NCBI RefSeq assembly: GCF_003852405.1
Contig: NZ_QAJM01000039.1
Coordinates: 62,001 to 126,000 of the forward strand
Length of the DNA: 64,000 bases
Direction of reading: 5' to 3'
Origin: Pseudomonas sp. KBW05
GTDB lineage: Bacteria; Pseudomonadota; Gammaproteobacteria; Pseudomonadales; Pseudomonadaceae
The position numbers and the translations under genes were made by a program. Positions 11,894 to 62,272 of this stretch are shown piece by piece (position 1 is the stretch's first letter; the number at the start of each line of letters is the position of its first letter). The notes under the pieces are model-generated. The model had not been told where the DNA came from, did no database searches, and was given only the letters and a program-made list of their open reading frames with translations.

Positions 11894-12012
11894 GGCAAAA
11901 AAAAGACCCGGCCAAAGAGCCGGGTCAAAAACCGTGATTAGCCTGATGAGGAGATATTCCAAGAGTCCGACCTAAGGTCCCTTGGTCTATCGACTGATCT
12001 CGCGATCAGCTA
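11894..12012 (-). ncRNA. prrF: PrrF-family iron-responsive small RNA
   Basis: On the minus strand, a roughly 119-base transcript would begin with a GATCGCGAGATC stem and continue through the strongly PrrF-like core ATCTCCTCATCAGGCTAATC. It ends in an intrinsic terminator: stem GACCCGGC/GCCGGGTC (11905-11912 with 11919-11926) plus eight U. I recognise the core and terminator as those of P. aeruginosa PrrF1/PrrF2, which pair with mRNAs of iron-containing proteins (sodB, sdh and others) when iron is scarce. A Fur box overlaps the promoter. The 5' end is inferred from the -10 element. Only one copy is present in this window. Confidence 0.88.
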
Positions 12013-12016
12013 GGTC

Positions 12017-12046
12017 CAATAATAATCATTATCATTTGCAAGTCAA
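12017..12046 (-). promoter_or_regulatory. Fur box and sigma-70 promoter of the PrrF-like RNA
   Basis: On the minus strand, TTGACT (plus 12041-12046) and TATTAT (plus 12019-12024) are separated by 16 bases. The interval GCAAATGATAATGATTATTATT is a close match to the Fur consensus GATAATGATAATCATTATC. A Fur dimer here would cover the spacer and -10, giving iron-dependent repression as known for prrF genes. Confidence 0.85.
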
Positions 12047-18880: not shown

Positions 18881-20524
18881 ATGGAACAACCGAATCAGAG
18901 CTACAGCCGTGGCGCTCAGGACAAGACCTTGCTGGCCATGACGATTGGCCAGGCGTTCGATCACACCGTGGCGCAATACCCGGAGGGCGAAGCCCTGGTG
19001 GTACGCCATCAACAACGCCGCTACACCTGGCAGCAACTGGCCGAGACCGTTGACCTGCACGCCCGCGCCTTCCTTGCCCTGGGCATGCAGACCGGTGATC
19101 GCCTGGGCATCTGGGCCCCCAACTGCGCCGAGTGGTGCATCAGCCAGATCGCCAGCGCCAAGCTGGGCGTGATCCTGGTCAACATCAACCCGGCCTATCG
19201 CAGCAGTGAATTGGACTACGTGCTCAAGCAGTCCGGTTGCCAGTGGCTGGTGTGCGCCGGGGCGTTCAAGACCTCCGACTATCACGCGATGGTGCAGGCA
19301 CTGAAGCCAGACCTGCGCGGCCTCATCAGCCTCGACCCCAGCCCGCCGCCAGGCTTCATGCCCTGGTCACAACTGGCGGCCCTTGGCGCCGGCATCCCGC
19401 CCGAGCAACTGCACAGCCGCCAGGCCAGCCTGCATTTCGATCAACCCGTCAATATCCAGTACACCTCCGGCACCACCGGTTTCCCCAAGGGCGCCACCCT
19501 CAGTCACCACAACATTCTCAATAACGGTTACATGGTCGGCGAAAGCCTCGGTCTGACGGCGCAGGATCGCCTGGTGATCCCGGTGCCGCTGTATCACTGC
19601 TTCGGCATGGTGATGGGCAACCTCGGCTGCATCACCCACGGCACTACGATGATCTATCCCAATGATGGCTTCGACCCATTGCTGACCCTCACTGCGGTTG
19701 CTGAAGAACGCGCCACCGGCCTTTACGGCGTGCCCACCATGTTCATCGCCGTGCTCGATCACCCACGCCGGGGCGAGTTCGACCTGGCCAGCCTGCGCAC
19801 CGGCATCATGGCCGGCGCCACGTGCCCCATCGAAGTGATGCGCCGGGTGATCAGCGAGTTGCACATGAGCGAGGTGCAGATCGCCTACGGCATGACCGAA
19901 ACCAGCCCGGTGTCGTTGCAGACCGGCGCCAATGACGACCTGGAGCGCCGCGTCACCACGGTCGGGCGTACCCAGCCGCAGCTGGAAAACAAGATCATCG
20001 ACGTTGATGGCAACACGGTTGCGCGCGGTGAGATCGGTGAGCTGTGTACCCGTGGCTACAGCGTGATGCTCGGCTACTGGAACAACCCCGAAGGCACCCG
20101 CGAAGCCATCGACGACGCCGGCTGGATGCACACCGGCGACCTGGCGAGCATGGACGCCCACGGCTACGTGTGCATCGCCGGGCGCAACAAGGACATGATC
20201 ATTCGCGGCGGCGAGAACGTTTATCCGCGTGAGCTGGAAGAGTTTTTCTTTACCCATCCGGCGGTGGCGGATGTGCAGGTCATTGGTATTCCGGATGAGC
20301 GTTATGGCGAAGAGATCGTGGCCTGGATCAAGTTTCACCCGGGCCATGTGGCCAATGCCTTGGAGCTGCAAACCTGGTGCAAGGGGCGCATCGCTCACTT
20401 CAAGACGCCCAGGCATTTCAGGTTTGTGGAGGAGTTTCCGATGACGGTGACGGGCAAGATCCAGAAATTCCGCATGCGCGAGATTTCGATGGAGGAGTTG
20501 CAAATGCAGTCCCAGTCGCACTGA
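18881..20524 (+). CDS. AMP-dependent acyl-CoA synthetase linked to the liu genes
   Basis: A 547-residue ANL-superfamily ligase with the P-loop [19 protein letters not shown]5-type [14 protein letters not shown], the hinge motif [37 protein letters not shown] and the catalytic lysine in [11 protein letters not shown]. It activates a carboxylic acid to the acyl-CoA via acyl-AMP. Divergence from liuA and a LiuR-type operator directly upstream suggest a branched substrate such as isovalerate, or a short to medium acyl acid; the substrate is inferred. ATG 18881 is taken because the longer frame to 18812 would run through the operator. Downstream hairpins probably end the transcript. Confidence 0.88.
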
Positions 20525-20529
20525 GGCTC

Positions 20530-20565
20530 AATGTGGGAGCTGGCAAGCCAGCTCCCACATTTTTA
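20530..20565 (+). terminator. Rho-independent-type terminator of the acyl-CoA ligase
   Basis: A 15-base perfect stem (AATGTGGGAGCTGGC with its complement, 20530-20562) is followed by TTTTT. It lies six bases after the ligase stop. The sequence is also related to REP arms (GTGGGAGC), so it may be a captured REP half serving as terminator. Confidence 0.75.
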
Positions 20566-20597
20566 ATAGTGTGGTGTCAGGCAATCGCGGAATCGCA

Positions 20598-20976
20598 GAA
20601 AGCACAAAGGGGACCCGGGGGTCCCCTTTAATTTGTCGTTGCGTGCTCTTTTTTTATTATTGAGGGGCGGTCTATTGTTGTTTTTGGCAACCGTTACCCT
20701 TTACCGCTGTTTTGGGCGACCCCCATCCGGGGTCAAGAGCAAACGTATTTTTTTGAACGCTGATCTGCTTCTTCGCACGCGATCCAACCAGTGGGTAGCT
20801 ACCTGAGGTAGTTTTATTTTTCTCTACTGGTCGCGGGTTTCGGCATTGCCGTTCCCTGCGAAGCACATCTTCTCCAAAAAAATCTGTTAGCTGCGTCTCT
20901 GCCGTGTTGTTTTTGTTATGTCAGAGTCGTTTCGTCTTATTTTTATTAGGTTTGGCGCTTTTTATTCTTGTTATGC
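20598..20976 (-). ncRNA. crcY: CrcY/CrcZ-type small RNA that sequesters Hfq/Crc
   Basis: The minus strand holds a non-coding stretch of about 375 bases downstream of a sigma-54 promoter. It contains repeated A-rich catabolite-activity-like motifs: AACAAGAATAAAAA (plus 20959-20972), AATAAAAATAAG (20936-20947), AACAAAAACAACA (20905-20917), AAAAATAAAAC (20812-20822), AAAAACAACAATAG (20672-20685) and CAATAATAAAAAAAG (20648-20662). It ends at a GGGGACC/GGTCCCC hairpin (about 20606-20630). CrcZ/CrcY RNAs have several such motifs, are CbrB/RpoN-driven and relieve Hfq/Crc catabolite repression. From memory, P. putida crcY lies next to the HMG-CoA lyase gene, as here. Length and ends are inferred. Confidence 0.85.
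20604..20632. terminator. Hairpin terminator at the 3' end of the CrcY-like RNA
   Basis: AAAGGGGACC and GGTCCCCTTT form a 10-base stem with a short loop. Runs of T follow on the minus strand (TTTGTGCTTT), and the plus side also ends in TTTAATTT, so it can act in both directions between the ligase and the RNA gene. Confidence 0.65.
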
Positions 20977-20985
20977 CATAGAGAT

Positions 20986-21001
20986 AGCAGAAGCCGTGCC
21001 A
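20986..21001 (-). promoter_or_regulatory. rpoN site: Sigma-54 (RpoN) promoter of the CrcY-like RNA
   Basis: On the minus strand TGGCACG-N4-CTGCT matches the -24/-12 consensus (TGGCACG-N4-TTGCW) with exact spacing. It is followed about 12 bases later by the predicted RNA start. A promoter of this class requires an enhancer-binding protein; CbrB is expected. Confidence 0.85.
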
Positions 21002-21083
21002 ACTTTTAAAAGTCCTTTAAAATCAATGGTTTGATTTTTGTGTAGGTAATTGCCTACGGCAAATGAGACAAAATATGTTCCCG

Positions 21084-21113
21084 TGTTACTCGATGTGTTG
21101 GCAGGCGGTAACA
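21084..21113. promoter_or_regulatory. Candidate CbrB enhancer site
   Basis: TGTTAC-N18-GTAACA is an inverted repeat centred about 100 bases upstream of the sigma-54 promoter, the usual distance for an enhancer-binding protein. TGTTAC/GTAACA half-sites are what I recall for CbrB upstream sites of crcZ and crcY. It sits at the 3' end of liuE. Confidence 0.65.
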
Positions 21114-21133
21114 CATTGTCACGGCTATGCTAC

Positions 21134-22033
21134 TCAACCGGCGTTACGTGCCTTGGCCACACGCGAGCCTGTTGGCCGACCGAGCACGCGGCTGATTTGT
21201 TCGCCCGCGCGGATCAAGGCCTCCAGGTCGACACCGGTCTCGATACCCAGGCCGTTGAGCAGGTACAGCACATCTTCGGTCGCCACGTTACCGCTGGCGC
21301 CTTTGGCGTAAGGGCAGCCGCCGAGGCCCGCGATAGAGCTGTCGAACACGTTGATCCCCTCCAGCAGGCTGGCGTAGATATTCGCCACGGCCTGGCCGTA
21401 GGTGTCGTGGAAGTGCCCCGCGAGCTTATCCCTTGGCACTTGCCCACCGACTACCTCGAACAGCCGCCGTGTAGCGCCCGCCGTGCCGGTGCCGATGGTG
21501 TCGCCCAGGGACACCTCATAGCAGCCCATGGCATACAGTTCCCGTGCCACTGCCGCCACCTGCTCCGGGGCGATCTGGCCTTCGTACGGGCAACCCAGCA
21601 CACAGGACACATACCCGCGCACACTGATCCCATGGTGTTTGGCCGCCGCCATGATCGGCGCAAAGCGTTCCAGGCTTTCGCTGATGGAGCAGTTGATATT
21701 GCGCTGGGAAAACGCCTCGGACGCGGCCGCAAACACCGCCACTTCCTTGACCCCGGCGGCCAACGCATCCTCGAAACCGCGCAGGTTCGGCGCCAGTGCG
21801 CCGTAGGTCACCCCGGGCTTGCGCTGGATCTGCGCGAACACCTCGGCCGACCCGGCCATCTGCGGCACCCATTTGGGCGAGACAAAACTGCCGACTTCGA
21901 TATAGCTCAAGCCGGCTGCACTGAGGGCGTCCACCAGCCGGACCTTGTCGGCCACGCTGATGGGCTGGGCTTCATTCTGCAAACCGTCGCGCGGGCCGAC
22001 TTCCACCAGGCGTACATGGGAGGGGAGGGACAT
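21134..22033 (-). CDS. liuE: Hydroxymethylglutaryl-CoA lyase
   Basis: A 299-residue DRE-TIM metallolyase: VRLVEVGPRDGLQNEAQPIS at the N terminus, the signature YVSCVLGCPYEGQI (catalytic loop cysteine), SLGDTIGTGT, and the metal-binding HFHDTYGQAVAN. AGLGGCPYAKGASGNVATEDVLYLL follows toward the C terminus. It cleaves HMG-CoA to acetoacetate and acetyl-CoA, the last liu step. ATG 22033, with AAGGT upstream, is chosen over 22060, which would overlap liuR. It is separated from liuABCD by the ligase and the CrcY-like RNA and is cotranscribed with liuR. Confidence 0.95.
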   Translation of the reverse strand: MSLPSHVRLVEVGPRDGLQNEAQPISVADKVRLVDALSAAGLSYIEVGSFVSPKWVPQMAGSAEVFAQIQRKPGVTYGALAPNLRGFEDALAAGVKEVAVFAAASEAFSQRNINCSISESLERFAPIMAAAKHHGISVRGYVSCVLGCPYEGQIAPEQVAAVARELYAMGCYEVSLGDTIGTGTAGATRRLFEVVGGQVPRDKLAGHFHDTYGQAVANIYASLLEGINVFDSSIAGLGGCPYAKGASGNVATEDVLYLLNGLGIETGVDLEALIRAGEQISRVLGRPTGSRVAKARNAG

Positions 22034-22049: not shown

Positions 22050-22442
22050 TCAATGGCCAACCTGGCTCATGGTGTGGGCCAGGGCCTGGGTGCAGCGCTC
22101 TTCGGCGGTGTCCAGTTCCAGCTTCATCTGTTCGATGTCCAGCAGCTGCTGTTCCAACTGCTCACGGCGCTCGGCGATTTTGCTGAGCATGCTGTTGAGT
22201 TGGATGTGGTTGCCGCTGGTAGGGTCGTAGAGTTCGATCAGCTCGCGGCATTCGGCCAGGGAAAAACCGATGCGTTTGCCGCGCAGGATCAGCTTGAGGC
22301 TGACCTTGTCCCGCGCCGAGTAGATGCGCTCCTGGCCCCGGCGTTCCGGGGCCAGCAGGCCTTGTTCTTCGTAGAAGCGAATGGCGCGGGTGGTGATGTC
22401 GAGCTCGCGGGCGAGGTCGGAGATGCTGTAGGTGGTGCTCAT
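22050..22442 (-). CDS. liuR: MerR-family regulator of leucine/isovalerate catabolism
   Basis: A 130-residue MerR protein: winged HTH (YSISDLARELDITTRAIRFYEEQGLLAPERRGQERIYSARD), then KRIGFSLAECRELIELYDP and a long dimerisation coiled coil (LSKIAERREQLEQQLLDIEQMKLELDTAEERC). This is the plan of LiuR, which controls liu genes in Pseudomonas and related bacteria. It ends 17 bases before liuE. A perfect palindrome (22485-22500) lies 43 bases upstream of its ATG and recurs ahead of liuA and the ligase, so autoregulation is likely. Confidence 0.92.
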   Translation of the reverse strand: MSTTYSISDLARELDITTRAIRFYEEQGLLAPERRGQERIYSARDKVSLKLILRGKRIGFSLAECRELIELYDPTSGNHIQLNSMLSKIAERREQLEQQLLDIEQMKLELDTAEERCTQALAHTMSQVGH

Positions 22443-24972: not shown

Positions 24973-25047
24973 CATTCGCGAGCAAGCCCGCTCCCACACT
25001 TTGATTTGTGAACACATTCAAAATGTGGGAGCGGGCTTGCTCGCGAA
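24973..25047. repeat. REPIN of GGGAGCGGGCTTGCTCGCG type
   Basis: ATTCGCGAGCAAGCCCGCTCCCAC and its inverted copy are separated by about 27 bases. It lies between convergent genes and is the second REP family of the window. Confidence 0.9.
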
Positions 25048-26495: not shown

Positions 26496-26606
26496 AATGT
26501 GGGAGCGGGCTTGCTCGCGAAAGCGGAGTGTCAGGCAATTAATTTTTGACTGACCCACCGCATTCGCGAGCAAGCCCGCTCCCACACAAGCCCGCTCCCA
26601 CATTTT
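26496..26606. repeat. REPIN of GGGAGCGGGCTTGCTCGCG type, with an extra partial arm
   Basis: AATGTGGGAGCGGGCTTGCTCGCGAAAGCGG and its inverted partner (CGCATTCGCGAGCAAGCCCGCTCCCAC) are followed by a short duplicated tail (ACAAGCCCGCTCCCACATTTTT). The duplication looks like slippage or incomplete gain of a third arm. Confidence 0.88.
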
Positions 26607-33738: not shown

Positions 33739-33834
33739 AAATGTGGGAGCGGGCTTGCTCGCGAATGCGGTGGATCAGCCAATGAATCTGTTGACTGACA
33801 CATCGCATTCGCGAGCAAGCCCGCTCCCACATTT
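33739..33834. repeat. REPIN of GGGAGCGGGCTTGCTCGCG type
   Basis: AATGTGGGAGCGGGCTTGCTCGCGAATGCGG and its inverted partner flank a 35-base centre containing GTTGACTGACAC. The palindrome sits between the convergent ends of tamB and the usher gene. Confidence 0.9.
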
Positions 33835-50612: not shown

Positions 50613-50722
50613 GAGTGTGGAATACAATCCCCTGTGGGAGCGGGCTTGCTCGCGAAGGCGGTGGTTCAGTCGATACATAAGTTGACTGACACACCGCCTT
50701 CGCGAGCAAGCCCGCTCCCACA
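50613..50722. repeat. REPIN copy A at the left edge of the T6SS island
   Basis: A pair of GGGAGCGGGCTTGCTCGCG arms around a 41-base centre, preceded by GAGTGTGGAAT. This 110-base unit matches the one at 62163-62272 without gaps and with about six mismatches. It is a near-identical direct repeat bracketing the vgrG-to-tssM-like block. The next 138 bases to vgrG hold no recognisable gene. Confidence 0.9.
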
Positions 50723-62175: not shown

Positions 62176-62272
62176 AGTCCCCTGTGGGAGCGGGCTTGCT
62201 CGCGAAGGCGGTGGTTCAGTCGATACCTAAGTTGACTGAACCACCGCCTTCGCGAGCAAGCCCGCTCCCACA
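62163..62272. repeat. REPIN copy B at the right edge of the T6SS island
   Basis: A 110-base unit matching 50613-50722 with about six differences and no gaps. Its first 13 bases (GAGTGTGGAATGA) are the end of the TssM-like coding sequence; the left copy keeps the matching GAGTGTGGAAT although no tssM-like gene precedes it there. Confidence 0.9.

Follow-up and report, generated by a model that had tools for sequence, protein, structure and literature searches.

In Pseudomonas aeruginosa, the RNA CrcZ binds the distal face of Hfq and titrates this protein, and six (A-R-N)n stretches have been described in it (PMC4063720). Its relative in P. putida, crcY (PP3540b), for which CbrB ChIP-seq, mutation and IHF data have been presented, has a sigma-54 promoter that CbrB activates directly with the assistance of IHF, on which crcY expression depends; four CbrB subsites, F1, R1, R' and R2, have been named there (PMC6296734). 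The CbrAB system has been described as exclusive to pseudomonads (PMC6296734), and a review presents both CbrAB and the cbrA-cbrB-crcZ arrangement as unique to Pseudomonadaceae (PMC8871633). The accessible text of PMC9049629 is confined to P. putida, while that of PMC5073097 reports cbrAB transcripts in a marine metatranscriptome and names no RNA. In the open-licence literature we found no claim of this circuit outside Pseudomonadaceae, and such a claim may be in print elsewhere. Here, we compare these systems with a locus in a 64,000-nucleotide stretch of Pseudomonas DNA (hereafter, the window). The window holds an ordinary crcY; what its relatives reveal is of greater interest.

Identity and distribution of the RNA downstream of liuE

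A covariance-model search, the check proposed in an earlier sequence-only reading that had named the feature crcY, matched the Rfam CrcZ family (RF01675) to window positions 20575-20974 on the minus strand with 314.8 bits (E 2.2e-87; gathering score 95 bits), the alignment covering the full length of the model (positions 1-398 of 398). From this match, the fold, the alignment and the consensus structure, the crcY RNA is placed at 20598-20974 (minus strand, ~375 nt), with a predicted start at 20974, about 12 bases past the GC of the -12 element. No open reading frame of at least 100 aa overlaps 20598-20974, in agreement with the absence of a convincing gene noted previously; a plus-strand frame from 21050 overlaps the enhancer and lies antisense to liuE. 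Upstream of and co-directional with the RNA is the gene of a hydroxymethylglutaryl-CoA lyase (21134-22033, minus strand), which we take, following the earlier reading, to be liuE/mvaB. It is preceded by a MerR-type regulator gene (22050-22442, minus strand), recognised by its sequence and presumably liuR-like.

The source genome carries two CrcZ-family copies, and the second sits in the gap between genes that we take, from their sequences, to be cbrB and pcnB, with cbrA upstream; it is thus crcZ. Since the other copy is crcZ and the window copy follows liuE, the window copy is crcY by synteny. The covariance model, the presence of crcZ elsewhere in the genome and the liuE synteny all bear out the identification made at first sight, and the neighbourhood then given for P. 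putida, crcY beside the HMG-CoA lyase gene, corresponds to the mvaB-crcY synteny given in PMC6292655. Judged by its sequence, the feature is hence a standard crcY, the second CrcZ-family RNA of this Pseudomonas strain, and known biology. The genes crcZ, crcX and crcY form one Rfam family and have similar sequences, but the strain's own crcZ is located elsewhere, between cbrB and pcnB, and no liuE was found in the 4-kb stretch around each of five extra copies from other genomes (L200, L202, L204, L206, L210), which makes it exceedingly improbable that the window copy is crcZ or crcX instead of crcY.

Across the genus, the CrcZ family is present in 248 of the 250 genomes sampled, and a DNA match to crcY with its promoter was obtained at E<=1e-3 in 240 of them, the weak ones among which may be crcZ. 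The RNA lies directly 3' of liuE in 19 of the 28 named Pseudomonas and Halopseudomonas liuE loci (L033-L060), and no profile match at E<=1e-3 was found in the 52 liuE loci of other taxa and of a second Halopseudomonas liuE (L061-L112; the latter is L065). Further copies were also seen: L144 (G266, P. resinovorans) and L146 (G272, MAG CAL) are second copies of the CrcZ family whose surrounding 15-16 kb contain no liuE and no cbrB, and G082 and G151 each hold four copies. Two of the three enhancer sites of G151 are identical in sequence and lie on different contigs, so an assembly effect is possible.

Decoy sites, fold and termination of the RNA

In an alignment of 23 CrcZ/CrcY/CrcX-type RNAs, invariant adenines recur in an A-A-N rhythm that matches the (A-R-N)n code given for the six CrcZ sites (PMC4063720). 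Six A-rich motifs had been counted in the window copy beforehand; six clusters do exist, but only five reach (ARN)n with n of at least 4. The putative Hfq-type site 1 is (ARN)5 at 20958-20972, with the AAN-spaced adenines invariant in the 23 RNAs; site 2, (ARN)4, lies at 20936-20947, and site 3, (ARN)4, at 20906-20917, where the consensus structure forms a hairpin loop. Site 4, the shorter AAAAATAA, occupies 20814-20821, followed by site 5 at 20671-20685 and site 6 at 20647-20661, both (ARN)5. All six are on the minus strand, and sites 2, 4, 5 and 6 were assigned from sequence together with the 23-RNA alignment. The consensus structure contains 57 pairs, 22 of them with at least one two-sided compensatory change, and leaves the A-rich sites mostly unpaired. 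The crcY RNA has a fold z-score of -3.5, and none of 100 shuffled sequences was as stable. The terminal hairpin described earlier is present at 20630-20605 (20605-20630, minus strand) as a GC-rich terminator with an 11-pair stem, a 4-base loop and a short T-rich tail; four of its pairs show two-sided compensatory changes.

Other features were noted in the window. A REP-type palindrome lies at 20533-20558, separating crcY from an acyl-CoA synthetase gene; the 3' ends of the two genes face each other there. The window contains 12 matches to the REP-type sequence GTGGGAGCTGGCTTGCC with at most 2 mismatches (0.04 expected), and paired palindromes occur at 24981-25041, 26499-26585, 33743-33830, 50634-50721 and 62184-62271. 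The iron-stress small RNA PrrF lies at 11897-12046 on the minus strand (RF00444, 157.3 bits, gathering score 90).

Promoter and enhancer of crcY

The -24/-12 element previously placed at 20986-21001 is indeed there: a sigma-54 promoter of the form TGGCAC-N5-CTGC, TGGCACGGCTTCTGC, reads from 21001 to 20987 on the minus strand. A sigma-54 match stands at -27/-28 in 80 of 81 CrcZ-family loci, several genomes being entered twice, with L125 as the exception. Between enhancer and promoter lies a perfect IHF consensus, AATCAAACCATTG (21024-21036, minus strand), which the sequence-only reading had not described; among 70 liuE-linked crcY promoters, a few genomes appearing twice, the consensus is found strictly in 21 and with at most one mismatch in 45.

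The inverted TGTTAC/GTAACA site reported upstream was likewise recovered, at 21113-21108 and 21089-21084. Counted from the start at 20974, the putative CbrB subsite TGTTAC (21108-21113, minus strand) lies at -139 and corresponds to F1 in the nomenclature of PMC6296734, while the putative subsite GTAACA (21084-21089, minus strand) lies at -115 and by position equals R' of P. putida crcY, which is centred at -112 (PMC6296734). A second R-like half-site, GGAACA, is found 8 bases past GTAACA (21076-21081, minus strand). Of 19 crcY promoters compared, 18 contain GTAACASGGRAACA, the exception being L142 with GTAACG, and R' is among the best conserved sequences of the crcY promoters studied here; in P. 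putida, its substitution was reported to be without effect on crcY expression (PMC6296734). Hence the window's crcY has a sigma-54 promoter, CbrB subsites and an IHF site in order, as sequence elements, and the promoter, CbrB and IHF elements align across the genus.

The position of these sites bears on how transcription of liuE might affect crcY. The enhancer had been assigned to the 3' end of liuE, and it had been proposed that liuE transcription could hinder activation of crcY by CbrB. The enhancer does begin about 20 bases beyond the liuE stop codon. However, the CbrB-like sites are intergenic, 21-50 bases beyond the end of that codon (21134), and the read-through published for P. putida is productive and was reported to supply CrcY (PMC6292655); we therefore regard such interference as very unlikely. 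That same publication, on Azotobacter, describes a longer PP3539-mvaB-crcY transcript in P. putida that is processed to a CrcY form of similar length, and when 20480-21300 was scanned for terminators, none lay in the interval from liuE to the crcY promoter. Both observations agree with a model in which most crcY RNA is processed from a liuR-liuE-crcY read-through transcript and crcY's own sigma-54 promoter plays a secondary part; yet this promoter, like the IHF and CbrB sites, is strongly conserved, as one would hardly expect if it were dispensable, and we give this origin of the main supply very little credence.

Two further palindromic elements were noted in these promoters. In the window, an inverted repeat ATGTGTT-N10-AACACAT (21093-21116, minus strand) wraps F1, and similar repeats are found in four of the five other clade members shown, L142 being without one. 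An ANR-like TTGAT-N4-ATCAA has been mentioned, as data not shown, for the crcY promoter of P. ogarae F113 (PMC12552145). An ANR reading of the ATCAA-N4-TTGAT element was considered and rejected: the orientation TTGAT-N4-ATCAA occurs within 175 bases in none of the 70 liuE-linked crcY promoters, while the everted ATCAA-N4-TTGAT, overlapping the IHF consensus, occurs in 22 of the 70.

We are almost certain that the window contains a crcY working as a decoy RNA for Hfq/Crc that is driven by CbrB, sigma-54 and IHF. Upon exhaustion of the preferred carbon source, CbrB would bind TGTTAC/GTAACA about 115-139 bases upstream, the bend made by IHF would carry bound CbrB to the promoter, and CbrB would activate RNA polymerase-sigma-54 at 21001-20987, with a ~375-nt RNA being transcribed from 20974 downwards. 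The six mostly unpaired A-rich stretches of this RNA would then contact Hfq on its distal face, together with Crc, and the resulting titration would relieve the translational repression of catabolic mRNAs. Transcription, dependence on CbrB, RpoN and IHF, and titration of Hfq are what the behaviour of the family leads us to expect in this strain.

Two enhancer spacings one DNA turn apart

The crcY enhancers have two spacings that differ by one DNA turn, and the window has the short form. In the crcY promoters compared from outside the window's clade, F1 is near -150 and GTAACA near -115, whereas in the window and its relatives F1 is at -139; the distance from F1 to GTAACA is 24 bases in the window versus 34-35 in the nine crcY-bearing P. 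putida-type loci among L040-L052, that is, about one helical turn longer. A pattern search permitting distances of 20-42 bases, in which mismatched sites were not counted, matched 184 of the 250 genomes. Among the 150 matches listed, some of which are third copies outside liuE, 39 sites had a distance of 24-26 bases and 111 a distance of 33-36, and no other distance was found.

To explain the short spacing, present in 45 of the 112 rows of a liuE tree, 6 changes are required, and well-supported branches force at least 4 of them; hence, the one-turn shift has recurred. Thirty of the 45 short rows represent the window's clade, chosen by similarity to the window (L113-L142) or to its liuE (L033); a further twelve (L171-L182) entered the tree on account of the short spacing seen in the pattern search. 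An extra TGTTAC at about -194, ~54 bases above F1, was also observed in L172-L176, L178, L181, L188 and L189, which belong to two short-spacing clades.

CbrB has been reported to be monomeric in solution, and in P. putida neighbouring CbrB subsites are 20-25 bases apart (PMC6296734). The site equivalent to R' falls at this neighbouring-subsite distance from F1 in the window's clade, and from its position it may have taken over the role of R1. With F1 at -139 rather than about -150, the subsite roles measured in P. putida may not carry over. This naturally occurring one-turn difference between crcY enhancers offers a ready-made experiment on the assembly of CbrB at scattered half-sites.

A probable CbrB-driven A-rich RNA outside Pseudomonadaceae

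We consider it highly probable that the CbrA-CbrB/CrcZ-type circuit is an old order-wide module, not an invention of Pseudomonadaceae. In the genera named below and in others, the gap between cbrB and pcnB would contain a sigma-54/CbrB-type promoter driving an A-rich decoy RNA for Hfq/Crc, which the Rfam model mostly fails to detect and which is in some cases tandem (at least two units); the CbrB half-sites would lie on a helical lattice of ~10.5-11 bases, and the window's clade would be one of several lineages that shifted an enhancer half-site by one full turn.

RF01675 scores over its cut-off in 10 of 194 genomes of the order, three of which (G289, G334, G369) are outside Pseudomonadaceae, and matches at E<=1e-3 in 42, the weakest (E 1e-4 to 1e-3) possibly by chance. 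A CbrA-like protein was found at E<=1e-200 in 137 of the 194 genomes, and most genomes with a strong CbrA match are without an RF01675 match. Although RF01675 ignores the neighbouring genes, every fetched RNA match with CbrB in reach sits between cbrB and pcnB, and the sub-threshold matches of Marinobacter sp. F3R08 and Halioglobus japonicus are also in this gap. In L158-L160 (G295, G449, G471), the CrcZ-like match precedes pcnB, the stretch contains no CbrB, and cbrA is located elsewhere in the genome; in L228 and L233, pcnB was not found in the stretch.

Because choice by the RNA was to be avoided, 33 loci were chosen by CbrA alone (L237 being identical to L155). Twenty come from high-scoring CbrA genomes without a CrcZ match and are not a random draw, and 13 come from 15 strong CbrA carriers among 37 named genomes, the other two being in the sample already. 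After cbrB, (ARN)4+ runs are in excess over base shuffles (p<0.01) in 30 of the 33, the exceptions being L218 (p 0.027), L245 (p 0.01) and L233 (none), and a strict sigma-54 match is present in 25. An ordered unit, defined as a CbrB-like site, then a sigma-54-like element, then at least two (ARN)4+ runs, occurs in 27 of these 33 loci and in 47 of 53 overall (3 Pseudomonadaceae, 17 found via the RNA match and the 33 chosen by CbrA; L158-L160, L144-L146, L150 and L168, which lies at a contig start, were left out of these counts). The unit was absent from all 53 antisense strands, and 100 rounds of base shuffling produced it in no locus; it is missing from L218 and L232-L236, with L233 falling short in nearly every respect. 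In the 53 stretches, the density of (ARN)4+ runs is 6.37 per kb on the sense and 0.69 on the antisense strand, versus 0.31 in the rest of the loci, which is mostly coding. The 900 bases preceding pcnB were also examined in 12 genomes that have no strong CbrA; none showed an excess at p<0.01 (lowest 0.013, L251) or a sigma-54 match. All 15 named CbrA carriers have the ordered unit: Halomonas (3), Marinobacter, Microbulbifer and Marinobacterium (2 each), and one each of Cellvibrio, Neptuniibacter, Haliea, Pseudomaricurvus, Halioglobus and a Cellvibrionaceae MAG. By NCBI taxonomy, Marinobacter, Halomonas and Microbulbifer belong to Marinobacteraceae, Halomonadaceae and Microbulbiferaceae.

The consensus structure of the distant set is a single long-range helix of 15 pairs, so the common fold of these RNAs is thin. 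Several loci appear to hold more than one unit. Self-BLAST of L222 showed a 558-base stretch twice at 99% identity, a duplication that could be an assembly effect, together with more distant copies. The repeats of L246 (71-80%) fit three units, L224, L230, L231 and L217 have weaker repeats between cbrB and pcnB, and L221 contains two ordered units that BLAST does not recognise as similar to each other.

The presumed protein partner was found alongside. Using as query a protein that we take to be Crc from its location between pyrE and rph, a Crc-like protein was detected in 32 of 32 CbrA-positive genomes (33-72% identity, E<=4.1e-55), of which G455 and G485 are apparently the same genome. Nine genomes without a strong CbrA comprised seven with weak Crc matches only and two (G483, G491) with a Crc-like protein.

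The CbrB half-sites of 46 promoters fall on a lattice with a best period of 10.5 bases for TGTTAC (60 sites) and 11.25 for GTAACA (75 sites). When each site was jittered by +-6 or +-12 bases, with sigma-54-like matches within 60 bases merged, none of 2000 sets was as strong. Near-copies of more than 55% ungapped identity had been dropped (58 to 46 promoters), which removes shared ancestry only partly.

The distant A-rich RNAs would presumably be expressed and bind Hfq. If such decoys follow cbrB in Halomonas, Marinobacter, Microbulbifer and Cellvibrio, carbon control by Hfq/Crc titration would be general in a large marine and soil group and, if so, this form of catabolite control could be tested in new hosts.

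Comparison with known systems

The window locus resembles crcY of P. putida KT2440 in its neighbour gene and gene order, sigma-54 promoter, F1, R', IHF site and CrcZ-family RNA, a likeness drawn from papers and from the sequences of P. putida-type loci. With CrcZ (RF01675) it shares the sequence and structure family, the A-rich decoy sites and the terminal hairpin; however, crcZ lies between cbrB and pcnB, whereas the window's crcY follows liuE, and the strain's own crcZ has a different enhancer spacing, with TGTTAC at -152 and GTAACA at -132. CrcX of Pseudomonas syringae is assigned to the CrcZ family in the literature and has a genomic place other than that of crcY; five third copies located outside liuE, which are candidate CrcX RNAs, have a crcY-like enhancer. 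RsmY and RsmZ of the Gac system differ from CrcY in target protein and binding motif, acting on RsmA via GGA motifs. Like CrcY, they are protein-titrating RNAs that are driven by a two-component system and occur in several copies (PMC8871633; PMC4063720).
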